Shown here: positions 37,005 to 46,034 of the stretch, one piece after another
Layout of the letters: each line of letters starts with the position of its first letter
Position numbering within the stretch: position 1 is the stretch's first letter
From: Pseudomonas sp. PSE14
Lineage (GTDB): Bacteria; Pseudomonadota; Gammaproteobacteria; Pseudomonadales; Pseudomonadaceae
NCBI RefSeq assembly: GCF_029203285.1
Contig: NZ_CP115669.1
Coordinates: forward strand, 3,534,001 to 3,598,000
Direction: 5' to 3'
DNA: 64,000 bases
Made by a program: the position numbers and the translations under genes
Notes under the pieces: generated by a model
What the model saw: only the letters and a program-made list of their open reading frames with translations
What the model was told of the DNA's origin: nothing
The model's database searches: none

Positions 37005-37034
37005 CAAAATACTGTTCATGCATACAGTATTTTG
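37005..37034. promoter_or_regulatory. LexA-like SOS box in an extended palindrome
   Basis: CTGTTCATGCATACAG at 37012-37027 keeps the CTG-N10-CAG frame of LexA boxes, and the flanks extend it to an 11-bp inverted repeat (CAAAATACTGT / ACAGTATTTTG). It lies 97 bases before 37125 (plus strand) and 97 bases before the lipoprotein start (minus strand), so either or both could be controlled. Confidence 0.65.
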
Positions 37035-37124
37035 AGAACATTCGCTCAACGACGACAAAGGCGCGACGAACCGACATCACGGAGCGCCGCATTACGAGGG
37101 TCGGTCCCTCTCAAGGAGCGAGCG

Positions 37125-37430
37125 ATGGTGAGCATCCATCAGCTGAAGTACACCGTGAATCACATGGCCATCGACGAAGTGCGCGAAGCCGTCGAGGAAC
37201 TGCTCCTCGAGGGGCTGGTCACCGAAGGCAAGACCCCCTTCAGCCGCACGCACTTCAACGCCTGCTTCGCCGAGATCGAGGCGCTGCTGCAACGCGCCGG
37301 CTACCACCGCCCGCTGGACGTGGTCGGCTACCAGGGACAGGCCTATGCAATGTTCGACCCCAGCCGCTGGGACGCCGTGGAGGTGCTGCGCTGGCTCAAG
37401 GAATACGTCGAGGAGGCGGCGGCCAGCTGA
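37125..37430 (+). CDS. Hypothetical protein, possibly SOS-controlled
   Basis: A 101-residue acidic protein that I do not recognise. It begins MVSIHQLKYTVNHMAIDEVREAVEELLLEGLV and ends in an acidic helix (VLRWLKEYVEEAAAS). No membrane segment, signal or metal motif is visible. The start follows AAGGAG. It lies downstream of the LexA-like box. Function unknown; the name is justified only by position. Confidence 0.7.
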   Translation: MVSIHQLKYTVNHMAIDEVREAVEELLLEGLVTEGKTPFSRTHFNACFAEIEALLQRAGYHRPLDVVGYQGQAYAMFDPSRWDAVEVLRWLKEYVEEAAAS

Positions 37431-43770: not shown

Positions 43771-44610
43771 TTACCAGGCCTTGCCGGTCTTGTAGAGGTT
43801 CTCGTAACAGAAGTTGGTCGCCTCGATGTAACCCTCGGCGCTACCGCAGTCGAAACGCTTGCCCTTGAACTTGTACGCCAGCACGCAACCGTCCTGGGCC
43901 TGCTTCATCAGGGCGTCGGTGATCTGGATTTCACCGCCCTTGCCCGGCTCGGTCTGTTCGATCAGGTCAAAGATGTCCGGAGTCAGGATGTAGCGGCCAA
44001 TGATCGCCAGGTTCGACGGCGCCTCTTCCGGCTTCGGCTTCTCGACCATGGTGTTCACGCGGTAGATGTCGTCACGGATCATCTCGCCGGCGATCACGCC
44101 GTACTTGTTGGTCTCTTCCGGCGGCACTTCCTGGATCGCCACGATGGAGCAGCGGAACTGGTTGTACAGCTTGACCATCTGCTTGAGGACGCTGTCGCCT
44201 TCCAGGTTCAGGCACAGGTCGTCCGCCAGGACGACGGCGAACGGCTCATCGCCGATCAGCGGGCGGCCGGTCAGGATGGCGTGGCCCAGGCCCTTCATTT
44301 CGATCTGACGGGTGTAGGAGAAGGTGCACTCGTCGATCAGGCGACGGATGCCGACCAGGTACTTTTCCTTGTCGGTGTTGCGAATCTGGTGCTCCAGCTC
44401 ATAGCTGATGTCGAAGTGGTCTTCGAGGGAGCGCTTGCCACGGCCGGTCACGATGCCGATTTCGCCGAGGCCGGCTTCCAGGGCCTCTTCCACCGCGTAC
44501 TGGATCAGCGGCTTGTTCACCACCGGCAGCATTTCCTTGGGCATGGCCTTGGTGGCCGGGAGGAAGCGGGTACCGTAGCCAGCGGCCGGGAACAGACATT
44601 TCTTGATCAT
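43771..44610 (-). CDS. galU: UTP-glucose-1-phosphate uridylyltransferase
   Basis: A 279-residue nucleotidyltransferase that makes UDP-glucose for LPS core, cell-surface glycans and trehalose or glycogen-type sugars. The signature FPAAGYGTRFLPATKAMPKEMLP (positions 7-29) binds the nucleotide, ADDLCLN binds Mg, and KGKRFDCGSAEGYIEATNF is the C-terminal conserved block. Normal length. Confidence 0.96.
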   Translation of the reverse strand: MIKKCLFPAAGYGTRFLPATKAMPKEMLPVVNKPLIQYAVEEALEAGLGEIGIVTGRGKRSLEDHFDISYELEHQIRNTDKEKYLVGIRRLIDECTFSYTRQIEMKGLGHAILTGRPLIGDEPFAVVLADDLCLNLEGDSVLKQMVKLYNQFRCSIVAIQEVPPEETNKYGVIAGEMIRDDIYRVNTMVEKPKPEEAPSNLAIIGRYILTPDIFDLIEQTEPGKGGEIQITDALMKQAQDGCVLAYKFKGKRFDCGSAEGYIEATNFCYENLYKTGKAW

Positions 44611-44813: not shown

Positions 44814-45161
44814 TCAGACTGCCACACCCTGCCCCGACAGACGCCGCCGCACCACACCCCAGATCGTCAGCTCATCGCCGTCGCCAACCCTGATGGACGG
44901 AAAGCGATCGCTCGCCGGCAACAGAGCGAAAGCACCTTCGATGATCGCCAGTCGCCGAATCAAGGCTTCTCCGTTGAGCTCCGCAACGACGATCTCACCC
45001 TCCACCGCCAACTCGGAGCGGTCGACCAACAGCAGGTCGTCGTGGTGAATCCCCGCCTCCGTCATGCCATCGCCATGTGCGCGCACTATGTATGTGTGAG
45101 ACGGCATCCACTGCGGGTGCGCGAGTGCGGCATTGTGGACGGATTCCGATGACTGATGCAT
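44814..45161 (-). CDS. UmuD'-like S24 protein lacking the Ser-Lys dyad
   Basis: A 115-residue protein of the LexA/UmuD (peptidase S24) fold. The core TYIVRAHGDGMTEAGI...DDLLLVDRS...GEIVVAELNGEALIRRL aligns with UmuD. The catalytic Ser position (GDSM) is Gly32 (GDGM), and the Lys position 37 residues later (TVKKL) is Arg69 (LIRRL), so it cannot self-cleave. The N terminus is too short to include the Cys-Gly cleavage site; the protein thus resembles cleaved UmuD' (also about 115 residues). No umuC gene is linked here. A close LexA box 16 bases upstream and a GAGGTGAGCC RBS suggest a real, damage-induced gene. Role unknown; a modulator of Pol V or of RecA*-LexA interactions is possible. Confidence 0.82.
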   Translation of the reverse strand: MHQSSESVHNAALAHPQWMPSHTYIVRAHGDGMTEAGIHHDDLLLVDRSELAVEGEIVVAELNGEALIRRLAIIEGAFALLPASDRFPSIRVGDGDELTIWGVVRRRLSGQGVAV

Positions 45162-45176
45162 GGCTCACCTCATATA

Positions 45177-45192
45177 CTGTATGCATATACAG
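45177..45192 (-). promoter_or_regulatory. LexA box upstream of the UmuD'-like gene
   Basis: On the minus strand CTGTATATGCATACAG fits the Pseudomonas LexA consensus CTGTATATNNATACAG at every fixed position. It ends 16 bases before the ATG at 45161, with the RBS between, so bound LexA would block transcription. Confidence 0.88.
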
Positions 45193-45315: not shown

Positions 45316-45477
45316 ATGAATCCGGGCACGTTCGTGACTCTCATGATTCTGGGGTGGCTGCTGCTGGCTGTGGTGACCCTGTGGGCGATCCTGCGAGTCC
45401 CCATGCGGCGGGCCCGGCTGCAGAAGCCCAAGGCAAAACCCGCCACTACAAGAGGGCGGAACCCGCTTCCTCATTGA
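45316..45477 (+). CDS. Small single-pass membrane protein
   Basis: A 53-residue frame: MNPGT, one hydrophobic segment (FVTLMILGWLLLAVVTLWAI, about 6-25), then a basic tail (RRARLQKPKAKPATTRGR). The preceding GAGG at about 45303 could be a weak RBS. Positive-inside orientation would place the tail in the cytoplasm. No family recognised; it could be real because of the clean topology, but it is short. Confidence 0.5.
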   Translation: MNPGTFVTLMILGWLLLAVVTLWAILRVPMRRARLQKPKAKPATTRGRNPLPH

Positions 45478-45668: not shown

Positions 45669-46034
45669 ATGAAGATCGAACGACTTCCTGCCACACAATA
45701 TCTCTGCCGCCAGTTTCCGGAGTTCGAGGTGGAGTTCGCCTCACGGCCCGATGGCAACCTGGTCATGACACTCAGTGATAGGGAGGGCGCAATGGTGGCC
45801 TGCCGGGTGGTCCAGTTGGACGAACAGCAGGATGCGCATCTGCTCGACAGCCTGGTAAGCCGCATCCGCAGGGATCTGGCAACCGAAGAAGGCCCACTGC
45901 AGCCGGAAGACGTGGATCATTTCAAGGAGCCGGTTCAACTGCAGAACTTCCATGAGTCCTCCGAACCGCTACGCAAACGTCGCATCGTGAACGCTGGGCA
46001 AAAACTGCGAGCCTTGGCGCATCTGAGTGCGTGA
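45669..46034 (+). CDS. Small hypothetical protein, DUF3509-like
   Basis: A 121-residue protein that resembles Pseudomonas DUF3509 proteins: a beta-rich first half (FPEFEVEFASRPDGNLVMTLSDREGAMVACRVVQLD) and a helix LLDSLVSRIRRDLATEEG. The C-terminal tail (LRKRRIVNAGQKLRAL) is basic. Function unknown. Stops 108 bases before the 3' end of tRNA-Leu. Confidence 0.65.
   Translation: MKIERLPATQYLCRQFPEFEVEFASRPDGNLVMTLSDREGAMVACRVVQLDEQQDAHLLDSLVSRIRRDLATEEGPLQPEDVDHFKEPVQLQNFHESSEPLRKRRIVNAGQKLRALAHLSA

Follow-up and report, generated by a model that had tools for sequence, protein, structure and literature searches.

Cleavage of UmuD is the switch that times the change from restrained to mutagenic repair in Pol V, and UmuD′ itself can do without Ser60. 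UmuD′ of Escherichia coli is the cleaved form of UmuD and a subunit of Pol V, whereas the protein described here (the dead protein) is encoded already short, has both Ser60 and Lys97 replaced, and belongs to a set of 22 carriers of which 15 have no UmuC match. A UmuD′ whose gene lacks the arm has a precedent in HumD of phage P1, which McLenigan in 1999 is said to have called a functional UmuD′ homologue. HumD is likewise encoded in processed form (PMC7092418, in part); unlike the dead protein, it shows Ser and Lys at the aligned positions, starts at GFPSPA, is 129 aa long and belongs to a phage, and identity between the two is 41% over 51 residues only. The UmuD of pUM505 (P. aeruginosa) resembles the dead protein in coming from a Pseudomonas and in having no umuC among the genes listed for the surrounding 5.3 kb, a stretch for which the gene table is incomplete, and it is reported to act on SOS genes (cited in PMC6636244, in part); unlike the dead protein, it is plasmid-borne and retains AGFPSPA, Ser and Lys. 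UmuDAb of Acinetobacter, also of the UmuD type, has a function outside Pol V, but it requires for repression an N-terminal domain (PMC4807011, in part) that the dead protein lacks. P. aeruginosa is described, in the excerpt of PMC13114513 available, as having no umuDC and about 15 genes in its LexA regulon, and umuDC is found on islands in some isolates (PMC6636244, in part). No report of a dead UmuD′ was found among the open-licence PMC papers searched.

The gene lies in a 64,000-nucleotide stretch of the Pseudomonas sp. PSE14 genome (NZ_CP115669.1, positions 3,534,001 to 3,598,000), the whole of which we call the window (Table 1). A first-pass annotation had given its product the length of cleaved UmuD′, 115 residues, and the open reading frame agrees.

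Table 1. Features at the locus, numbered from the first base of the window.
Feature	Positions	Strand	Remarks
LexA box CTGTATGCATATACAG	45177..45192	not assigned	15 nt upstream of the ATG
Dead UmuD′-like CDS	44814..45161	minus	ATG start, 115 aa; S24 domain at residues 16-104 (profile, sequence, predicted fold)
Codon 32, Gly (GGC)	45066..45068	minus	at the catalytic Ser60 position of UmuD (alignment)
Codon 69, Arg (CGG)	44955..44957	minus	at the catalytic Lys97 position of UmuD (alignment)
galU	43771..44610	minus	next gene downstream, same strand as the dead UmuD′-like gene
53-aa protein	45316..45477	plus	one membrane span predicted by eye; divergent neighbour in 22/22 carriers

By profile and modelled fold, the 115-aa protein is a member of the Peptidase S24 / LexA-UmuD fold family: a profile search matches it to Pfam PF00717 at 69.2 bits (cut-off 23.3), and comparison of the predicted fold, after re-alignment, gives UmuD′ as the best PDB match. 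Although an S24 member by fold, it is outside the UmuD and HumD families by their defining features, scoring 84.8 bits against NCBIfam PRK10276 (UmuD), under the cut-off of 110, and 30.7 bits (E 2.4e-7) against the NCBIfam HumD model, far under the cut-off of 120. Identity to the umuD product of the same genome is 48%.

The proposal that Gly32 replaces Ser60 and Arg69 replaces Lys97 is borne out by the alignment, in which the two residues are 37 apart, equal to the spacing of 60 and 97 in UmuD. The structure 8gmt, which we take to be that of the K97A mutant of UmuD, supports this register, since its chain B (PDB 8gmt_B) shows Ala aligned with Arg69. Across the 22 orthologs identified below, the Ser position is occupied by Gly in 19 and Glu in three and the Lys position by Arg in all, and the Ser-Lys catalytic dyad is absent from every one; Ser and Lys are both present in 40 of 40 outgroup UmuDs, a set consisting of what the searches returned rather than a systematic survey. 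The cleavable arm is missing as well. The N-terminus of the window protein lacks not only Cys-Gly, as first annotated, but also Ala-Gly and GFPSPA, and the cleavage motif [AC]GF[PA][SA]P occurs in none of the 22 orthologs and in 26 of the 28 relatives recognised as active, a count for which the script recognised 43 of 46 alignment rows, with the dead/active split off by at least one row, and sorted them by a different pattern from that used for the 40 outgroup proteins. Some Ala-Gly or Cys-Gly is found in the N-terminus of seven of the 22, though none has the full motif. This region varies among ortholog sub-clades, one of which retains an SLDDLL-like stretch as in UmuD, and besides the catalytic positions the dead clade is consistently distinct at residues 28, 83 and 85.

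Searching 25 genomes of the genus identified an ortholog in 22, each at E 4.5e-52 or better; the next match was at 4.6e-33, and in this lower tier the matches examined proved to be true UmuDs. A wider family search, covering 398 genomes sampled evenly from a larger set at an E cut-off of 1e-30, gave the 22 orthologs and 17 weaker matches, some of which were fetched and read; of 19 loci checked, 18 matched, each with both Ser and Lys, and one (L134) gave no match. Among the best 80 of 165 relatives, from named genomes, 13 have the Gly/Arg pair (at least 69% identity) and 67 have Ser/Lys, and the carriers named there include P. nitroreducens, P. pseudonitroreducens, P. nicosulfuronedens, P. citronellolis, P. 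delhiensis, P. schmalbachii, P. jinjuensis and P. panipatensis. In a tree of 62 proteins, a single branch with support of 100/100 splits the 22 dead proteins from 40 active ones.

The reading frame is intact in all 22 orthologs, and dN/dS (Nei-Gojobori) is 0.07-0.34 in 17 listed pairs, with a median of 0.23 and a range of 0.05-0.55 over 226 usable pairs of 231 at 108 shared codons. The gene is under purifying selection and, because these ratios are low and every frame is open, it looks like a functioning gene rather than a relic. The first-pass annotation had suggested looking for intact Ser and Lys in related strains as a sign of local decay; the 22 orthologs are uniformly dead and under purifying selection. 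Local decay or sequencing error is ruled out by these open dead orthologs, their LexA boxes, the dN/dS values and their grouping in one clade. That the gene is a decaying umuD pseudogene, for which the loss of active site, arm and umuC might speak, is barely credible, contradicted as it is by 22 open frames of one origin, the median dN/dS, and an invariant Arg69 and LexA box. An origin from phage or plasmid was also rejected: 29 phage records match, all below 60% identity, as do at least 5000 plasmid records, all below 60% among the matches listed. The two catalytic sites were read in these lists for pUM505 alone; four viral-contig relatives have both Ser and Lys, and no dead relative on a mobile record was seen among the sites read (the four viral contigs and pUM505).

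Two genomes, G005 and G012 (the latter by inference of the P. aeruginosa clade), have imuABC, dinB and galU and are missing the dead gene; no significant match to it was found within about 1.5 kb of galU in either, nor around the small membrane gene in G012. The dead protein is therefore not a generally required subunit. Absence from G014 carries no weight, because that draft is also without galU (best match 1.7e-8).

A full-consensus LexA box had been placed 16 bases before the start codon; the box is confirmed, at a distance of 15 bases. The loose form CTGT-N8-ACAG is uninformative alone, with two exact copies in the window and 13 found at one mismatch against 17.7 expected. The form CTGTAT-N4-ATACAG, allowing up to one mismatch, occurs once in the window against 0.03 expected, and it also precedes imuA and the true umuD of the PSE14 genome. 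A perfect CTGT-N8-ACAG box stands 14-22 nt before the ATG in 22/22 orthologs, the window gene included. Such boxes suggest that the gene is under LexA control and would be induced by damage.

The LexA box lies within the intergenic stretch shared with the divergent 53-aa gene, and this constant partnership raises the question of whether the dead protein has its role linked with the small membrane protein, or with some other neighbour, instead of with SOS polymerases. We consider this very unlikely: the 53-aa gene, present in 23 of the 25 genomes of the genus (its product having an extended tail in the citronellolis group), persists in G012 without the dead gene and with no LexA box near it, and the partial rate correlation of the two proteins is -0.14. 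On the other side, galU adjoins the dead gene in 17 of 22 carriers, one of them PSE14, with no imuABC in the fetched flank. In four others (G009, G011, G016 and G019) imuA-imuB-dnaE2 lies between galU and the dead gene, which is convergent with dnaE2, and in G007 imuABC adjoins galU while the dead gene is elsewhere. Judged from context and tree, the presence of imuABC beside the dead gene probably reflects a single move of the cassette within one clade. The imuA-imuB-dnaE2 cassette moves within the genus, adjoining galU in five genomes (loci L160, L164, L166, L169 and L179), and its protein distances do not track those of the galU region.

No umuC lies nearby, as first noted: the Y-family matches of PSE14 are at 2.72, 3.69 and 4.38 Mb and the window spans 3.534-3.598 Mb, with a full-length umuD followed by umuC about 110 kb from the dead gene. 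The flanks fetched (about 2-3 kb a side, some short) contain a UmuC-like gene at none of 13 dead loci and at 53 of 67 Ser/Lys loci among the best 80 of 165 relatives. Two Y-family matches, DinB and ImuB by score, were found in 15 of the 22 carriers and more, some of them fragments, in seven. Since those 15 have no match beyond DinB and ImuB, UmuC is not the general partner. The earlier reading of an orphan, armless, protease-dead protein of UmuD′-type fold behind a LexA box stands, and its idea of a polymerase partner loses UmuC in that general role.

The additional matches in seven carriers would suit a decoy against incoming Pol V, in which heterodimers with plasmid or prophage UmuD block or destabilise the foreign polymerase. 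The abundance of umuD-like genes on plasmids and the heterodimerisation of E. coli UmuD variants (PMC5342242, in part) also favour it. However, identity to the UmuD of the carrier's own genome is only 48% in PSE14, the dimer is itself presumed, and the gene and its LexA box are kept also in the 15 carriers without a UmuC match; we regard the decoy as improbable.

With UmuC missing from most carriers, the candidates become ImuB-DnaE2, DinB, Pol III and RecA. In E. coli the alpha subunit of Pol III, a homologue of DnaE2 (PMC6511836, in part), is bound by both UmuD and UmuD′ (PMC5342242, in part), and UmuD binds DinB (PMC3901139, in part). Full-length UmuD disturbs the alpha-beta contact of Pol III and restrains mutagenesis, which UmuD′ promotes, and S60A stops cleavage of the full-length protein (PMC3901139 and PMC5342242, both in part). 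In four genomes the gene lies beside dnaE2, a hint that the ImuB-DnaE2 mutasome is the partner; a point against it is that ImuB is believed to carry already, in fused form, a small-subunit analogue of its own (PMC6511836, in part). Rate covariation, assessed with a background-corrected distance-matrix test on 19 of the 22 carriers per gene (15 for DUF3509; carriers were dropped where Gor was incomplete or outside the fetched stretch), gives a partnership with the polymerases no support, being negative for DnaE2 (-0.26), ImuB (-0.49), ImuA (-0.34) and DinB (-0.22). Values were 0.02 for GalU and -0.14 for the small membrane protein, and the linked neighbours gave positive ones (Gor 0.74, DUF3509 0.76, Diox 0.37), with permutation p printed as 0.000 for Gor and DUF3509, 0.005 for Diox and 0.41 to 1 for the others. 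Shared locus history would give this positive pattern, and the test cannot tell linkage from function.

We tentatively favour, at somewhat short of an even chance, a lineage-specific, vertically inherited, armless and dead UmuD paralogue that is held by LexA and works by binding as a ready-made polymerase manager. A UmuD paralogue would have lost its cleavable arm and both catalytic residues and passed down vertically in one lineage; LexA would repress the gene until DNA damage, upon which the UmuD′-shaped protein would be made without RecA-stimulated processing. This protein, presumably a dimer and unable to cut itself or others, would most likely act purely by binding to the resident error-prone machinery. 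Action by binding alone is expected because UmuD′ promotes mutagenesis, S60A affects cleavage, and Ser60 is dispensable in UmuD′. As to partner and direction of effect, which we infer, the ImuB-DnaE2 mutasome would come first, followed by DinB or the Pol III alpha subunit. A bolder reading is rather unlikely: a fixed, always mature UmuD′ in one Pseudomonas group, acting either within the ImuB-DnaE2 mutasome, as an optional extra subunit or clamp, or as a RecA-directed damper of SOS, with transcription-only control replacing the transcription-plus-cleavage switch of Pol V.

The dead protein could instead be an SOS attenuator with no polymerase partner, occupying the LexA/UmuD site on the RecA filament and so damping or timing SOS, perhaps also recombination. 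UmuD and LexA have each been solved on the RecA filament, going by the PDB titles of 8gmt, 8gms and 8s7g; such a role needs no UmuC, as suits most carriers; and the pUM505 UmuD, likewise with no umuC listed around it in that incomplete gene table, is reported to regulate SOS genes in P. aeruginosa and has been suggested to be anti-SOS (Diaz-Magana 2015, cited in PMC6636244, in part). However, the latter retains its cleavage site, Ser and Lys and is thus a precedent of a different form; the dead protein is missing the arm that enters the active site. We think attenuation unlikely.

Under the favoured reading, the dead protein is a UmuD′ that needs no cleavage and is capable of none, behind a LexA box, and selection retains its gene though most examined carriers are without UmuC. 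If it tunes ImuB-DnaE2, DinB or RecA, the role of UmuD′ could be studied separately from both its protease and UmuC, and the P. nitroreducens/P. citronellolis group would have one more SOS gene.

PA0922 of P. aeruginosa, a LexA-regulated gene divergent from dinB (PMC8944484, in part), was considered as a counterpart of the dead gene and rejected, the G012 gene divergent from dinB being unrelated to it by eye. The window does hold a homologue, by eye, of that G012 gene (PA0922 by position) at 37122-37430 (+), with a perfect CTGT-N8-ACAG LexA-type box upstream at 37012-37027; similar boxes lie at about matching distance in G001 and G003. The gene at 37122-37430 is a probable second SOS gene of the window. 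In G012, an isolated LexA-type box stands just past dnaE2 (L175, 12642-12657) with no obvious gene. Finally, the divergence of the DUF3509 protein encoded at 45669-46034 (+) of the window closely tracks that of the dead protein (partial r 0.76, 15 genomes), probably owing to linkage.
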